From Candidatus Poribacteria bacterium (GTDB lineage: Bacteria; Poribacteria; DTPJ01; WJIO01): DNA of 11,620 nt. Shown here in pieces: positions 3,940-11,470 of this stretch. Each line of letters begins with the position of its first letter. Positions within the stretch are counted from its first letter, which is position 1. Both the position numbers and the translations under genes were made by a program. The stretch lies in assembly GCA_014730235.1 (NCBI GenBank), contig WJIO01000313.1:1-11620 (forward strand), read 5' to 3'. A model generated the notes under the pieces. The model was not told where the DNA came from, did no database searches, and saw only the letters and a list, made by a program, of their open reading frames with translations.

Positions 3940-4101
3940 GGTTCTTCCGGGTTTAGTGTGGTAAATATAAGGAACTTCCTTATGCTGTCATTCCTGCGAA
4001 AGCAGGAATCCAGTAGATCTACATAAAGATTGGATTTCTGCTTTCGCAGGAATGACAAGCTGAGAGAATTTCAATATAACCACACTAAACCCGGAAGAAC
4101 C
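3940..4101. mobile_element. Family A MITE-like element, intact, 8-bp target duplication
   Basis: This 162-bp non-coding element has perfect 23-bp terminal inverted repeats: 3940-3962, beginning GGTTCTTCCGGGTTTAGTGT, and 4079-4101, its exact reverse complement. It is flanked by a perfect 8-bp direct repeat TAAAATAT (3932-3939 and 4102-4109), the mark of transposition. Inside, 3986-4012 and 4031-4057 form a 27-bp hairpin with one mismatch, built on GTCATTCCTGCGAAAGCAGG. Its loop holds the palindrome GTAGATCTAC (4013-4022). No transposase is encoded, so it must be mobilised in trans. An 8-bp AT-rich duplication would fit ISL3-type or other 8-bp-duplicating transposases; the family is not settled by the sequence. 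It lies between the beta-helix gene and the rnpA-region operon. Confidence 0.92.
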
Positions 4102-4166: not shown

Positions 4167-4331
4167 CCAAGTATAAATTTTGTGTCCCTGTATCATTGCG
4201 AAGAACGGAGTGACGAAGCAATCTCCTCCATAAATTATACCTTTGAGATTGCTTCGCTTTGCTTGCAATGACATATATAGTAGGTTTTTAGCCTGTTCAG
4301 AAGTCTTTACGGGCATAAATTTTATTCTTGG
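4167..4331. mobile_element. Family B MITE-like element, intact, 9-bp target duplication
   Basis: This 165-bp element is unrelated in its ends to family A. Its terminal inverted repeats match at 18 of 22 aligned positions: CCAAGTATAAATTTTGTGTC from 4167, and the reverse complement of GGGCATAAATTTTATTCTTGG (up to 4331). It is flanked by a perfect 9-bp direct repeat ACAAATTAT (4158-4166 and 4332-4340). The interior folds as a hairpin: CGAAGCAATCTC (4214-4225) pairs perfectly with GAGATTGCTTCG (4245-4256), and TCATTGC (4193-4199) with GCAATGA (4265-4271). No protein is encoded. The right duplication ends seven bases before the -35 box at 4348, so the element sits directly upstream of the operon promoter. 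Confidence 0.9.
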
Positions 4332-4424: not shown

Positions 4425-4943
4425 ATGTTAAACAAAAGTGTATTAGTATTAAATGCAAGTTATGAAGCCATAAACATATGTAATCTTAAAAGAGCTATTA
4501 TTTTAATTTTTAAGGGTGTTGCATGTGCTGAAGAAGAGGCAGAACATGAGATTAGGTCTGCCAGTATGGTAATAAAAGTTCCAACAGTTATAAGGCTTTT
4601 GAAATATGTGCGTATTCCATATAGAGTGGTACGTTTTTCACGTAAAAATGTACTTTTACGAGATAGGCATACATGCCAGTATTGCGGTCAAAAGTTTTTA
4701 CCAGGAATGTTGACTATAGATCATGTAGTTCCGGTTTCCCGCGGTGGCAAAACAAGATGGGAAAATGTAGTAGCAGCCTGTAAAAAATGCAACATAAAAA
4801 AAGGTAACAGAGAACCTCGAGAAGCTGGTATGAATCTGCTTAAGACACCAAAGGCTCCGCCTGTTGTATATTATCTGCATCTGGTTAGAAACATGCAGGG
4901 ACATCATGATACCTGGCGTAAATATCTATTTTTGGATTGTTAA
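4425..4943 (+). CDS. HNH endonuclease family protein
   Basis: Encodes 172 residues. The ATG at 4425 is six bases after AAGGTGA. The HNH fold occupies about 76-130: RDRHTCQYCG with the first zinc-type Cys pair C84/C87, LTIDHVVPVSRGG with the D99-H100 catalytic pair, WENVVAACKKC with N114 and the second Cys pair C119/C122, then NIKKGNR. The last H of H-N-H is replaced by Asn (N123), which is common in this subfamily. The N-terminal 70 residues (LVLNASYEAINICNLKRAI) match the small stand-alone HNH proteins widespread in bacteria whose cellular role is unknown. It is not paired with a methylase, phage gene or toxin partner, and it opens what looks like a housekeeping operon, with a 33-nt gap to the next gene. 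The nuclease fold is sure; the target is unknown. Confidence 0.92.
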   Translation: MLNKSVLVLNASYEAINICNLKRAIILIFKGVACAEEEAEHEIRSASMVIKVPTVIRLLKYVRIPYRVVRFSRKNVLLRDRHTCQYCGQKFLPGMLTIDHVVPVSRGGKTRWENVVAACKKCNIKKGNREPREAGMNLLKTPKAPPVVYYLHLVRNMQGHHDTWRKYLFLDC

Positions 4944-5748: not shown

Positions 5749-6078
5749 ATGAAATATGGAAAACTCAAGAAGACCTGGCAGTTTAGCAAAGTTTACCAAG
5801 AGGGGGATAAATATTATAGCAACCTATTTATTCTTTACGTTTTACCCAACAAAATATGCGAAATAAGAGTAGGTTTGACTGTAAGTAAAAAAGTGGGGAA
5901 AAGTGTACAGCGTAATAGGGTTAAAAGGTTAATACGGGAGATAGTAAGATCAGTAAAGACATTTAAACCAGGATATGATCTGGTATTTATAGCAAGAAGA
6001 TCTGCAGTAGATATAGAATATTCAAAAGCGAAAGAATCAATATTTTATTTACTTAATCGGGCTAATATACTCTACTAA
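5749..6078 (+). CDS. rnpA: Ribonuclease P protein component
   Basis: Encodes 109 residues, the usual length for RnpA, the protein subunit that helps the RNase P RNA bind and cleave the 5' leader of pre-tRNA. The hallmarks are present in order: LKKTWQFSKVYQEG (6-19), LFILYVLPN (26-34), RVGLTVSKKVG (40-50), and the RNR signature in SVQRNRVKRLIRE (52-64), which contacts RNase P RNA. GYDLVFIARRSA (75-86) follows. The start codon has no visible Shine-Dalgarno sequence (TTTAATTTCCAATTATAT precedes it), unlike most other genes of this operon, so translation may depend on upstream ribosomes or A/T-rich initiation. The next gene, yidD, starts 18 nt after the stop. Confidence 0.96.
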   Translation: MKYGKLKKTWQFSKVYQEGDKYYSNLFILYVLPNKICEIRVGLTVSKKVGKSVQRNRVKRLIREIVRSVKTFKPGYDLVFIARRSAVDIEYSKAKESIFYLLNRANILY

Positions 6079-6096
6079 AATTAGGTGATTTTTTCT

Positions 6097-6303
6097 ATGA
6101 AAAAGGCATTTGTATTTCTGATAGATATATACCGAAAATGTATCTCTCCTTTCTTGCCTTCTTCCTGTCGTTTCTATCCCACTTGTTCTCAATATACCCA
6201 GGAAGCTATAATTCGTTACGGTCTTATCAAAGGTCTATGGTTATCTATTAAACGGATATCCAAATGTCATCCCTTTCATCCCGGTGGATACGATCCAGTT
6301 TGA
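6097..6303 (+). CDS. yidD: Membrane protein insertion efficiency factor YidD
   Basis: Encodes 68 residues. I chose the ATG at 6097 rather than the in-frame GTG at 6085, because the GTG lies inside the ribosome binding site AGGTGA (6083-6088), which is eight bases from the ATG. The sequence has the full family signature: [25 protein letters not shown], with conserved Cys residues, then [23 protein letters not shown]. YidD is a small membrane-associated protein with an amphipathic N-terminal helix that assists insertion of proteins by YidC. Its position between rnpA and yidC is the classic one. Confidence 0.96.
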
Positions 6304-6427
6304 TGGATATGTAGCATTATGCTCCTGCATATTTAACCTGAGAATATTAATGCTCCCAGATATTCATTCTGCTATTTCCGGGTAATCAGTCAGACAGATT
6401 ATCAATGCTCTTTGTGTGGAGAAAATT
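6304..6427 (+). other. 124-nt yidD-yidC spacer with a small hairpin
   Basis: This is the longest gap inside the operon. ATATGTA (6306-6312) can pair with TGCATAT (6327-6333), one G-U pair included, with AGCA/TGCT nested inside. There is no T-tract, so it is not a typical terminator. A diverged direct repeat (ATTATGCTCCTGCATATT and ATTAATGCTCCCAGATATT) follows each other closely. No promoter is convincing. It could be an mRNA processing or stability site; that is speculation. Confidence 0.35.
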
Positions 6428-8302
6428 ATGGAAAAAAGGTTTATAATAGCTATAGTTTTGATTTTTGCGATCCTCTTCCTTTGGCCTCTGGTTTTTAACC
6501 GTAGAAGGCAACCTGCACCTACATCGTTAGATGAAAAAGCAGAACAACAAACTCAAAAAGGTGAATCAGAATCAGTTCAGGACGAATCCGAACCAATACA
6601 AAAAGAATTGAAGGAATTGGAGTCATACCAAAAAGTACCGGAAGAAACTCTTGTTCAAGTTGATACAAAGCTTTATCAAGTTCAGTTGACTACATCAGGA
6701 GCAAGGGCTGTTAGCTGGAAACTAAAGGAATTTTATGAGCGTAATGGCGATGACAATCAATATCCGGACAATATTGATTTGATTCCAGAGAATTTAGTTC
6801 ATCCTTCGGCGAGAAAATGGCTGACTGTTAAGTTTTCTGATCCTGAACTCCAGGATGAAATTGAAGATGCTCAATGGCGACCAGATAAAAAATCCCTTGA
6901 TATTATAAGCAGTGGAAAAGAACAAGATTCAATTGAATTTATTTACCCTAGTAACCAAGGTCTAACTATATCAAAAAAGGTTACTTTCTTTGCTGATAAT
7001 TATTTTGCTGATGTGGAAATTGGTTTCCAGAACGAATCAGAAGATAGTGTTGAAATAGATGGTTACAATCTGTACTGGGGGGCCGGGATTACAAAAGATG
7101 AGGTGATCTCTGATTCGGAGATGGCCAGTGAAGGGCCTGTTGCCCTTGTAAAAACCGAAAAAGGACTTGATCTTATAAGACATTGGAAGCGAACTGGATT
7201 TGCCTGCTTTGGTGGTAAATACGTTCAACTGCCTGAGCAGCAAGGCCCTATTTCCTGGGTTGGTTTATCCAGCAAATATTTTTTGGCTGTTTTAATACCC
7301 GGTAGTGATTCCTGGTGGTCAAATGCAGAGGTAGCAGGTAAAAGATACGATCTTATTGCTGAGAATAAGGATACAGTTTTACCTCCTTCTCTTGGCCCAA
7401 ATGAAGTCTGGAACGAATGGGGTATGAATACATCCATAGCCCTTATAAGACCTGATTTTTCAATACCTACAGGTCAATCAGTTAAACACCAGTATCGGGT
7501 TTATATAGGGCCGAAAAAATGGGATATAGTAAGGAATATTAAAAGTCTGGGAGAATCACCGGAAAATCTACAAATTGGGAAGATTATAAAGTTTGGAATG
7601 TTTAGCCCCCTTGGAAAGGCTACACTCTGGATTCTTAACCTTATTTACGATTTAGTGAATAATTATGGTGTAGCAATTATATTCATAACTATTCTAATCA
7701 AGACAATTTATCTTCCTTTAACTCACAAAAGCTTCAAGTCAATGCGCAAAATGCAAGAATTAGGACCTAAACTCAATGAGCTACGGGAGAAATACAGAGA
7801 TGATGCGCAACGTTTGCAAAAGGAGACAATGAAGCTGTATAAAAAACACGGCGTCAACCCTATGGGAGGTTGTCTGCCGCTGTTATTTCAAATGCCCGTC
7901 TTTTGGGCTTTATTTACAACGCTGCGAGGAGCAGTAGAATTGAGAGGGGCTGTTTTCATATCTGGTTGGGTAACCGATCTATCATTACCAGATACTGTTG
8001 CTATGATCGGGGGATTCCCCCTCCGCATATTACCCGTTCTTATGACTGGTAGTATGCTTGCCCAACAGCTTCTATTCGGATCAGGCGGACAGGGGCAAAA
8101 TAACAAAATGATGGCCTTTATGCCACTTATATTCGCTGTTATATTTTATGGAATGCCTTCTGGTTTGGTTTTGTATTGGCTCTGCAATAACATATTATCA
8201 ATTGGGCATCAATATCTCATTAGAAGGCAGCAAGACACGGGAATCGAGGATGAAGAAGAAAAAAATGTTAAAATCACTAAAAATAATGACAAGACAAAAT
8301 GA
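6428..8302 (+). CDS. yidC: Membrane protein insertase YidC
   Basis: Encodes 624 residues. The ATG at 6428 is preferred over the in-frame GTG at 6416: GGAG (6418-6421) sits six bases before the ATG, and the resulting N-terminus MEKRFIIAIVLIFAILFLW is the usual YidC first membrane helix. Then come a charged linker (about 30-65) and the large periplasmic beta domain (about 66-385) found in Gram-negative YidC. The conserved Oxa1/YidC core begins near 389 (FGMFSPLGKATLWILNLIY). It includes the cytoplasmic helical hairpin (KMQELGPKLNELREKYRDD), the signature NPMGGCLPLLFQMPVFWALF (about 476-495), and the last helices (MAFMPLIFAVIFYGMPSGLV, then YWLCNNILSIGHQYLI). The tail is short and charged. YidC inserts membrane proteins alone or with SecYEG. 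Length and domain order are normal. Confidence 0.97.
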   Translation: MEKRFIIAIVLIFAILFLWPLVFNRRRQPAPTSLDEKAEQQTQKGESESVQDESEPIQKELKELESYQKVPEETLVQVDTKLYQVQLTTSGARAVSWKLKEFYERNGDDNQYPDNIDLIPENLVHPSARKWLTVKFSDPELQDEIEDAQWRPDKKSLDIISSGKEQDSIEFIYPSNQGLTISKKVTFFADNYFADVEIGFQNESEDSVEIDGYNLYWGAGITKDEVISDSEMASEGPVALVKTEKGLDLIRHWKRTGFACFGGKYVQLPEQQGPISWVGLSSKYFLAVLIPGSDSWWSNAEVAGKRYDLIAENKDTVLPPSLGPNEVWNEWGMNTSIALIRPDFSIPTGQSVKHQYRVYIGPKKWDIVRNIKSLGESPENLQIGKIIKFGMFSPLGKATLWILNLIYDLVNNYGVAIIFITILIKTIYLPLTHKSFKSMRKMQELGPKLNELREKYRDDAQRLQKETMKLYKKHGVNPMGGCLPLLFQMPVFWALFTTLRGAVELRGAVFISGWVTDLSLPDTVAMIGGFPLRILPVLMTGSMLAQQLLFGSGGQGQNNKMMAFMPLIFAVIFYGMPSGLVLYWLCNNILSIGHQYLIRRQQDTGIEDEEEKNVKITKNNDKTK

Positions 8303-8344
8303 AATCCGAACCCGTCAAAAATACAGAATGCGGGAGGTAATGTA

Positions 8345-8980
8345 ATGACAGAACAGTTCGTTGAAGAAGAAGGTAGAACAACCGAAGAGGCTTTAGAACG
8401 GGCACTTAACAAAATTGGTGCTGAAAGAGAGCATGTCAGAATAACAGTTTTGGATGAAGGTAAAAAAACCCTGTTTGGTTTGATAAGTAAACCAGCGCGG
8501 GTTCGTGTTAGCCTGAAAGAAGATCCAGCAAGCACGCCAGAAGGTATATTGAAAGTACTGTTAGATGAAATGGGTATTAAATCTGATATTCATACACGGG
8601 CTACCGACGGAAATATATATCTTACCGTCAATACCCCAAGCGCAGGCCTTTTAATCGGAAGACGAGGTCGTACTCTAAACGCAATACAACATATAATTAA
8701 CTGCATAGTAAATAGATCATCCCTGGTAAAAAGAAGAGTTATAGTTGACGCAGAGCAGTATCGCGAAAGAAGAGAGGAAATACTCACTAATCTTGCTCAT
8801 AAACTTGCCACAAAAGTAAAATCAACAGGTCAGGAAGTGGTCGTTGAGCCTATGAATCCCCAAGACAGAAGAATAATACATCTGGCTTTGCAGGATGATA
8901 AAGATGTAACTACATTCAGTCGGGGGGAAGGTTCTTTCCGTAGTGTCGTTATAACCTTAAAAGAAAGTGCTGCTGGTTAA
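8345..8980 (+). CDS. jag: Jag/KhpB RNA-binding protein
   Basis: Encodes 211 residues. The ATG at 8345 lies seven bases after GGGAGG (8332-8337). There are three domains: an N-terminal Jag domain (about 3-57, GRTTEEALERALNKIGAE ... KTLFGLISKPARVRV), a KH domain with the GxxG loop GRRG at 105-108 (SAGLLIGRRGRTLNAIQHI), and an R3H domain (about 139-205) with R175-R176-x-x-H179 in NPQDRRIIHLALQ. The family binds RNA and is linked to cell-wall growth and division in Firmicutes. It is nearly always encoded beside yidC, as here, 42 nt downstream. It is the last gene before the operon terminator. Confidence 0.96.
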   Translation: MTEQFVEEEGRTTEEALERALNKIGAEREHVRITVLDEGKKTLFGLISKPARVRVSLKEDPASTPEGILKVLLDEMGIKSDIHTRATDGNIYLTVNTPSAGLLIGRRGRTLNAIQHIINCIVNRSSLVKRRVIVDAEQYRERREEILTNLAHKLATKVKSTGQEVVVEPMNPQDRRIIHLALQDDKDVTTFSRGEGSFRSVVITLKESAAG

Positions 8981-9010
8981 TGTTAGCATAATGTATCCAT
9001 AAATCATAAC

Positions 9011-9050
9011 AAAAAGCAAGGGACGATCAAACGATCGTCCCTTGCTTTTT
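9011..9050. terminator. Strong bidirectional intrinsic terminator
   Basis: A perfect 18-bp stem: 9011-9028 (AAAAAGCAAGGGACGATC) pairs with 9033-9050 around the loop AAAC. The A-run on the 5' side and T-run on the 3' side let it act on both strands. It closes the operon 30 nt after the jag stop and lies only 17 nt before the mnmE start codon. Confidence 0.93.
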
Positions 9051-9057
9051 ATACAAA

Positions 9058-9063
9058 TATAAT
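9058..9063 (+). promoter_or_regulatory. Candidate -10 box just before mnmE
   Basis: TATAAT (9058-9063) is a perfect -10 hexamer and ends four bases before the mnmE ATG. The -35 region would fall inside the terminator stem (around 9035, TCGTCC) and is poor, and no TGn extension is present. If used, transcription would start at or next to the ATG, giving an essentially leaderless mRNA. In DNA this AT-rich, chance matches are common. Confidence 0.3.
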
Positions 9064-9067
9064 TAAA

Positions 9068-10468
9068 ATGTCCTTTAAAGATTACACAAATAATACAATT
9101 TCAGCAATATCAACCCCCAGGGGCGAAGGTGGTATAGGAATAGTCAGGATGAGCGGTCCATCAGCTTTATTTATTGCTGAAAGTATATTTAAACCTCGTT
9201 ACAGTAAAAACAGTATTTCTCAGGCTGACACTCATACTCTTTTATATGGCCATATAATAAATCCCAAAAACCATGAAATACTGGATGAAGTGCTTCTTAC
9301 TGTAATGAAAGCACCAAGAACCTACACAAAAGAAGATATAGTAGAAATAAACTGTCATGGAGGTAGCATTCCTTTAAGTAAAGTATTGGAACTTACCCTG
9401 GAGATGGGGGCAAGACTTGCCGAACCCGGGGAATTTACCCGAAGGGCCTTTATTAACGGCCGGATTGATCTGACCCAGGCAGAAGCTGTGGCGGATATTA
9501 TCCGGGCCAAGACGGAACTAAGCTTAAAAGTATCCATGGAGCAGTTACAGGGACGTTTGGCGGATATAATTGGTAATATACGGTCTGATGCCCTGGAATT
9601 GATGACCTATGTGGAAGCATCCATAGATTTTCCCGATGAAGATCTGGATTTTTTGTCTTCAAAAGAGATAATAGAACGGCTAAAAGATATTATATATACT
9701 TTAGATAAGCTTTTAGCTACAGCAAATGATGGAAAATTTATTACTGAAGGTATAAAAGGTGTTATTATTGGTAGACCAAATGTAGGTAAATCCAGCTTAT
9801 TTAATGCACTACTCCATGAAAACAGAGCTATTGTTACGAGCATTCCCGGCACTACCAGAGATACTATAGAAGAATTTATTAATCTGTATGGTGTTCCACT
9901 AAAACTTACCGATACAGCAGGCCTTCATCATGCAGAGGATACTATCGAGATCGAAAGCATGGAACGGACAAGAGTTCAGTTGGATAAAGCAGATATAATT
10001 TTGTTGGTTCTGGATTCTTCTGATTCATTAACAGAAGATGATCGGCAGTTAATTGATTTAGTCAAAGAAAAGAAAACTCTTGTTATACTTAATAAATCAG
10101 ATCTTCCCAGGAATATTGAAAAAGAAGAAATAAAAAGATTGGCTGGTATAAACAGTTTAATAGAAGTTTCTGCTATTAATGAAACCGGTCTGGATAGACT
10201 TAAGTCTGCTATAACTGGTTTGACGTTACACAAAGAATCTGTATCAACAGATACTGTATTCATAACTAAACTACGTCACAAGATTTCTCTTGAAAAGGCG
10301 AGGGAAAATTTTGAATATGCACTACAAAGCGCAAAAGATAAAATGCCGCCCGAGCTTATTTCTGTTGACCTTAGAGGAGGGCTGCGGAGCCTGGATGAAA
10401 TAACAGGAAAAACAAGCTCCGCAGAGATTTTAGATCAGGTGTTTTCGAGATTTTGTATAGGAAAATAG
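9068..10468 (+). CDS. mnmE: tRNA modification GTPase MnmE (TrmE)
   Basis: Encodes 466 residues, normal for the family. With MnmG it makes the cmnm5 modification at wobble U34 of certain tRNAs, using a folate one-carbon unit. The N-terminal folate-binding domain begins NNTISAISTPRGEGGIGIVR (8-27) and contains the conserved NCHGG (95-99) and GEFTRRAFINGRIDLTQAEA (121-140). The G domain has all motifs: GRPNVGKSS (235-243), TTRD (262-265), DTAG (282-285), NKSD (342-345) and SA (368-369). The C-terminus FCIGK (462-466) carries the conserved Cys463. The ATG at 9068 has no Shine-Dalgarno sequence and directly follows a strong terminator, so initiation is unusual; no better upstream start exists in frame. 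mnmG is not seen. The stop lies five bases from the 3' end of the opposing gene. Confidence 0.97.
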   Translation: MSFKDYTNNTISAISTPRGEGGIGIVRMSGPSALFIAESIFKPRYSKNSISQADTHTLLYGHIINPKNHEILDEVLLTVMKAPRTYTKEDIVEINCHGGSIPLSKVLELTLEMGARLAEPGEFTRRAFINGRIDLTQAEAVADIIRAKTELSLKVSMEQLQGRLADIIGNIRSDALELMTYVEASIDFPDEDLDFLSSKEIIERLKDIIYTLDKLLATANDGKFITEGIKGVIIGRPNVGKSSLFNALLHENRAIVTSIPGTTRDTIEEFINLYGVPLKLTDTAGLHHAEDTIEIESMERTRVQLDKADIILLVLDSSDSLTEDDRQLIDLVKEKKTLVILNKSDLPRNIEKEEIKRLAGINSLIEVSAINETGLDRLKSAITGLTLHKESVSTDTVFITKLRHKISLEKARENFEYALQSAKDKMPPELISVDLRGGLRSLDEITGKTSSAEILDQVFSRFCIGK

Positions 10469-11140: not shown

Positions 11141-11149
11141 TTTATTGAG

Positions 11150-11425
11150 CCAAGTATAAAATTTATGTCCGTGAAAACTTTGGCTCTTCTGGTTTGAGTA
11201 TGGTAATAATTTGAAAATTTTCTCAGCTTGTCATTCCTGCTTCAGGCTTTTTTAAAAAAGCCTGAAGCAGGAATGACAAATGGAGGATATTTTTTTCTTA
11301 ATTGGACAATGTTTTTTACACCTCCACATTCAAACTGGATGAGCCAAAACTTTTGATATAGACTAAAAACTTTATTTGTTACTCCGTTCTTCGGAATAAC
11401 AAAGGTATGTAAAATTTATGCTTTG
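11150..11425. mobile_element. Family B MITE-like element interrupted by a family A element
   Basis: The left end is CCAAGTATAAAATTTATGTC (from 11150) and the right end is the imperfect inverted repeat TAAAATTTATGCTTTG (to 11425). It is flanked by a perfect 9-bp direct repeat TTTATTGAG (11141-11149 and 11426-11434). Without the inserted A element and its duplication the B element is 104 bp. Its inner hairpin (TTTGTTACTCCG ... CGGAATAACAAA, 11376-11402) matches, in reverse orientation, the interior of the copy at 4167 (CGAAGAACGGAGT shared). So this copy lies in the opposite orientation and is a shorter variant. Its right end is 16 nt before the TTGACA at 11442, the same distance as in the other copy. 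Confidence 0.86.
11182..11345. mobile_element. Family A MITE-like element nested in a family B element
   Basis: This is a 164-bp element. Its ends GGCTCTTCTGGTTTGAGTAT (from 11182) and CCACATTCAAACTGGATGAGCC (11324-11345, read as reverse complement) match at 17 of 22 positions. It is flanked by a perfect 8-bp direct repeat AAAACTTT (11174-11181 and 11346-11353). Inside is a perfect palindrome of two 26-nt arms with no loop (11228-11253 and 11254-11279), containing GTCATTCCTGC. The left half (TTTTCTCAGCTTGTCATTCC) matches the right half of the copy at 3940 in reverse complement, so this copy is inverted relative to it. More diverged ends suggest it is older or a separate subfamily. Confidence 0.9.
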
Positions 11426-11441
11426 TTTATTGAGTTTTTAG

Positions 11442-11470
11442 TTGACAATATATTTCTACCGTAGTATATT
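11442..11470 (+). promoter_or_regulatory. Sigma-70 type promoter for the gene starting at 11611
   Basis: The -35 box is TTGACA (11442-11447, perfect), the spacer 17 nt, and the -10 box TATATT (11465-11470, five of six). An overlapping TATTAT begins at 11467. The -35 and the first bases of the spacer (TTGACAATATATTT) closely resemble the operon promoter at 4348 (TTGACAAAATATTT). Transcription would begin near 11477, leaving a leader of about 135 nt. Confidence 0.82.

Follow-up and report, generated by a model that had tools for sequence, protein, structure and literature searches.

A probable composite MITE of nested origin and its placement upstream of promoters in a Candidatus Poribacteria genome

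Members of the ISL3 family generate 8-bp target duplications. TnGBS, ISLre2, and several ISKra4-group elements (Mutator superfamily) insert 15 to 17 bp upstream of -35 boxes, and in those ISKra4 members whose ends are nearly complementary, promoters lie at either side of the element (PMC3942029). Here, we describe a stretch of 11,620 nucleotides (the window) from a Candidatus Poribacteria bacterium (GenBank assembly GCA_014730235.1, contig WJIO01000313.1), in which an element designated A lies inside an element of a second family, B. The nested stretch is very probably one copy of a composite MITE, derived from an ancestral insertion of A in B, spread through the ends of B, and targeted to promoters.

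Structure of the window copy

The outer element occupies positions 11150-11425 (276 bp, CCAAGTATAAAATTTATG...GTAAAATTTATGCTTTG) and the inner element positions 11182-11345 (164 bp). Neither unit carries a gene, and no ORF of at least 60 aa was found within the 276-bp outer unit. A reading made from the sequence alone (the sequence-only reading) had reported a pair of target duplications for each element, two different inverted-repeat families, and the absence of a transposase from the window. Direct reading of the window sequence confirmed both pairs of duplications at the positions listed in Table 1; the boundaries of both families proved correct to the base, and the window indeed contains no transposase. 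No Rfam family was matched in the window, and folding of the whole composite gave a z score of -11.6.

The window also contains an ordinary cluster of rnpA, membrane-insertase-like (yidC), R3H/KH-like, and mnmE genes (5749-10468), with A and B elements occupying the intergenic gaps on both sides. An A-like left end with a hairpin, lacking a matching right end, is located at 1088-1162 and is probably a truncated A.

Table 1. Positions of the A and B elements, their duplications, and associated features in the window
Feature	Position	Strand	Sequence or observation
Standalone A	3940..4101	+	8-bp duplication TAAAATAT
Uninterrupted B (no A)	4167..4331	-	9-bp duplication ACAAATTAT on both sides; TTGACA 16 nt past the 4331 end
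9-bp target duplication of composite, left copy	11141..11149	+	TTTATTGAG, from the sequence; other 9-mers at composites elsewhere
B left end, inverted repeat	11150..11173	+	CCAAGYATAAAATTTATGTCC; 18/21 bases in common with the ISKra4/ISLre2-like IS on C354
Inner 8-bp duplication, left copy, apparently inherited with the composite	11174..11181	+	AAAACTTT, present at 93/107 left junctions
Element A, most likely an ISL3-type MITE	11182..11345	+	GGCTCTTCTGG...GAGCC; inverted arms; standalone relatives with their own 8-bp duplications
Hairpin inside element A	~11228-11279
Inner duplication, right copy	11346..11353	+	AAAACTTT here versus AAAACTTC in most composites
B right part, shortened hairpin and right inverted repeat	11354..11425	+
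Terminator-like hairpin in B right part	11403-11375	minus
9-bp target duplication of composite, right copy	11426..11434	+	TTTATTGAG, from the sequence
Sigma-70-like promoter, TTGACA-17 nt-TATATT	11442..11470	+	Starts 16 nt past the element end; putative target, outside the element

Copies of the composite and the order of events

The source genome (5.53 Mb in 451 contigs) was searched for further copies; counts other than those from pattern searches refer to a sample of approximately 0.73 Mb of long stretches plus approximately 120 short regions. Using sequence search, 86 places in the genome were found to match the stretch, with long matches mostly starting at query position 51 and stopping at approximately 324 to 329, the outer boundaries of B. 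Forty of the 86 places were retrieved, and comparison of the ends of the fuller copies gave CCAAGCATAAAATTTATGTCCGTGAAAACTTTGGCTC at the left and GTAAAATTTATGCTTGG at the right, with differing 9-mers flanking the composites (e.g., TTTTGTAAT, TGTTATAAA, GAGCTAAAT, and TGTATATTT). The outer 9-bp duplication was perfect in 19 of the 47 composites measured and had no more than one mismatch in 29, which is beyond chance, as pairing the left flank of one copy with the right flank of another gave 0.05% perfect matches and 0.8% with one mismatch or fewer. A pattern search for the junction of the B left end, AAAACTTT, and A gave 116 occurrences genome-wide, against none for a reversed-pattern control. 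The long-stretch sample contains 24 B pairs, in most of which A begins at a distance of 32 bp, measured from the same end of B.

As this junction is fixed in 116 occurrences and the copies carry their own outer duplications, A would have entered B once, in an ancestor, with the composite then spreading through the B ends; these duplications and the fixed boundaries likewise indicate that the composite transposes as a unit and that 11150-11425 arrived in one event. We infer that the nesting happened only once, in a progenitor. A single subtype accounts for most A ends in composites (80 of 102, versus 14 of 138 standalone ends), and this similarity argues for a single origin. Both the composite and B have the features of a MITE, being short (approximately 165 to 350 bp for B with or without A), devoid of a transposase, bounded by inverted repeats and 9-bp duplications, and present in many copies.

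Each part was also found alone. A occurs at many sites with its own perfect 8-bp duplications, and B lacking the A interruption, for which the sequence-only reading had proposed a search, was identified once in the window and additionally on C46, C368, and C383, each with an unsplit AAGACTTC; the window copy runs GTAAAGACTTCTGAACAGGCTAAAAAC unbroken across the insertion point of A. These uninterrupted relatives were recognized by similarity and alignment, as no unsplit B identical to that of the composite was found at three or fewer mismatches; this absence counts against the explanation given above. On C332, a copy of B at full length carries A (GTGAAAACTTT-A-AAAACTTCTGATACAGACTAAAAACTTATTATACAT) and is bounded by an outer duplication of its own, CTTCAGATA. 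The large hairpin of B has been lost from the common composite, and common composites have a deletion in B that is absent from solo B.

The sequence-only reading had taken the perfect inner duplication as proof that B landed at this locus and that A entered it there afterward. That A is nested inside B holds, since A alone and B without A both exist; two successive events at the window locus are, however, extremely unlikely, even with both duplications perfect there. The junction is the same to the base in all 116 occurrences, mostly with the same A subtype and with A offset 32 bp from one particular end of B, in copies that have different outer duplications of their own. Furthermore, the inner repeat is usually a 7/8 match (AAAACTTT/AAAACTTC): among 46 composites, 26 have AAAACTTC as the right copy and just 2 have AAAACTTT. 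Because the right copy is normally AAAACTTC and uninterrupted B reads AAGACTTC, the perfect AAAACTTT pair is not a fresh footprint, and the perfect match in the window copy probably reflects a later C-to-T change. The sequence-only reading had named as evidence against itself a continuous unit repeated many times, with no copies of either part alone; the repeated unit was found, as were the separate parts. Repeated, independent entry of A into the same AAAACTTT site of B is given a slight chance. Such a hotspot would accord with the preference of A for AT-rich 8-mers, and the different right half of A in short composites could stem from a second insertion of A or from recombination among A copies, yet the common composites have one B deletion absent from solo B and one left-end A subtype that is rare elsewhere.

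Short composites of approximately 194 to 212 bp are missing the segment bounded by two AAAACTTT motifs, and their A has a different right half; those of 195 to 197 bp are located at L076:13269-13464, L077:585-780, L084:1600-1794, and L063:621-817, and their structure points to either a subsequent deletion or recombination of one A copy with another. Palindromes of 23 bp such as CCAAGYATAAAWTTTATRCTTGG, which correspond to two fused B ends, were identified at L094:9694-9716, L113:247-269, L080:7569-7591, L069:2739-2761, and L032:167-189. Those in L113 and L080 have perfect 9-bp duplications and that in L094 a near-perfect one, and a TTGAC occurs 16 bp away from those in L094, L113, and L069. 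Such palindromes are likely either minimal elements or what deletions have left of B.

Promoter placement and candidate transposases

To examine the flanks of B, 198 distinct B ends were taken without selection for promoters. TTGAC starts at offset 16 in 39 of these, against approximately 0.17 expected per offset, and the full TTGACA is found at this offset in 26. TATAAT, allowing one mismatch, is most frequent at offset 39, with 31 cases; this position is 17 nt past the -35 hexamer. At the 57 ends with TTGA at offset 16, the unselected -10 hexamer is T72 A75. A54 A67 T70 (percent), and T and G are overrepresented immediately before it. No such promoter peak was present at 125 standalone A ends used as a control. 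Either B end faces a promoter about equally (49 of 138 versus 20 of 58 ends). Of 44 promoter-bearing flanks, 32 are followed within 250 nt by an ORF with a ribosome-binding-like site, versus 31 of the 66 other flanks. Among composites with clear duplications, 14 of 29 have a -35 box matching at five of six positions at offsets 14 to 17, where 1.4 are expected; that only about half of them have the box counts against the best explanation. In the window, the composite and the solo B each end 16 nt before a promoter, in the latter case upstream of an HNH gene at 4425. Insertion 15 to 17 bp upstream of -35 boxes, expected of a derivative of ISKra4 or the Mutator superfamily, is thus seen for B.

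A PF06782 transposase of 442 aa is encoded on C354 within an intact 1,509-bp IS, the ends of which (CCAAGCATAAAAATAATGTTC) match those of B at 18 of 21 bases and which is flanked by a 9-bp duplication, CCGATTTGT. The protein passes the PF06782 cutoff and scores below the NCBIfam cutoffs for both ISKra4 (E = 1.4e-44, 152.9 bits; cutoff, 205) and ISLre2 (E = 5.2e-42, 144.5 bits; cutoff, 200). This IS was seen once in the genome, differs from B at 3 of the 21 terminal bases, and itself has no clear -35 box at offset 16; these points and the scores below the cutoffs likewise count against the best explanation. It is the best candidate for the source of the transposase of B. B is most likely an ISKra4-type MITE, and the enzyme moving the composite would very probably be of the ISKra4/ISLre2 kind, supplied in trans. 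A second UPF0236 match, on C264 (L180:733-2037), is an ISKra4 transposase above the curated cutoff but was rejected as it lacks B-like ends; by eye, the sequence that comes next looks like a cobalamin riboswitch ahead of a gene for a binding protein.

A is also short and transposase-less, with inverted repeats, 8-bp duplications, and many copies, as in a MITE. Approximately 690 A-type ends are present in the 5.5-Mb genome, which for a bacterium is a very heavy load of MITEs. The 8-bp target duplication expected of an ISL3 derivative is present, and ISL3 transposase fragments at contig ends in the same genome are candidates for its mobilization; the end of one resident fragment matches the A repeat at 17 of 23 bases, a loose match. 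A is most likely an ISL3-type MITE and would have been moved by an ISL3 transposase.

Under the preferred explanation, A, with its 8-bp duplication, would have entered the Mutator/ISKra4-type MITE B, with its 9-bp duplication, in an ancestor of the lineage, and the outer B ends would have remained functional after nesting. The nested unit would then have been copied to approximately 100 sites, very probably by an ISKra4/ISLre2-like transposase supplied in trans that tends to place it 16 bp upstream of a sigma-70 -35 box in either orientation, as the window copy would have landed relative to its promoter. Movement of the composite by the ISL3-type transposase of A, with passive B ends, is very improbable: the genome does contain ISL3 transposase fragments, and the end of one of them bears a loose resemblance to that of A, but the outer duplications are 9 bp at B ends rather than 8 bp at A ends, and the promoter rule is obeyed by composite insertions and not by standalone A. 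There is a small chance that B is kept next to promoters by selection, as an operator or insulator, rather than by targeting, which would suit both its position upstream of promoters and the strong hairpins of the folded composite. The distance is, however, constant to the base at many unrelated promoters, the flanking duplications indicate insertion, related transposases are known to use this offset too, and under selection harmless insertions farther upstream should be equally common.

Distribution and comparison with known systems

No composite was found in 38 related genomes, and when B ends were searched for across 83 further genomes from the phylum, each gave zero to three matches, at chance level; among these 84 genomes of the phylum, B is private to its species. 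The exact junction had one match in GTDB 220 contigs, within a succinate dehydrogenase-like iron-sulfur gene and without a B or A end. IMG/VR gave two matches, both in unrelated sequence; all three were dismissed as chance.

The genome displays the steps by which one element absorbs another, with the intact host, the host plus insert, shortened forms, and more than 100 offspring. It extends the promoter-targeted transposition rule of bacteria (ISLre2, TnGBS, and some ISKra4) to an expanded MITE family. It also supplies dozens of target promoters mapped in this lineage, together with a natural test of the effects of such elements on downstream genes. A further, tentative proposal is that the two-family nested MITE, as the dominant form of the B family delivered to about -51 of dozens of promoters, might cap the upstream side of many genes with hairpin-rich, terminator-like DNA, in effect a genome-wide promoter insulator or a rewriting of upstream regions.

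As far as the literature was searched, fixed placement upstream of promoters is a known but rare behavior that is undescribed for a composite MITE, and no paper describing an ISKra4-related MITE as promoter targeted was found there. Mosaic MITEs such as the Tn3-derived TIMEs (PMC4133298) resemble the composite in being small and nonautonomous and in forming mosaic mobile units, and they belong to a different transposase family. To our knowledge, promoter targeting has not been described for them. A shares with the ISL3 family its 8-bp duplications and has ISL3 transposase fragments in the same genome, whereas it lacks coding capacity, and the resident fragment end agrees at only 17 of 23 bases. 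The ISLre2 family and the TnGBS conjugative transposons (p-MULT 3) follow the same rule as B, inserting 15 to 17 bp (16 bp) upstream of promoters, but they do so mostly in one orientation, with the right end at the promoter, while B uses either end. Compared with the ISKra4 group (p-MULT 4; ISKra2, 4, 5, and 6; Guerillot et al. 2014, PMC3942029), B differs in lacking a transposase, and the resident transposase falls below the curated ISKra4 cutoff; the two are alike in lying approximately 16 bp upstream of a sigma-A -35 box on either side, and the resident IS with B-matching ends has an ISKra4-like transposase.
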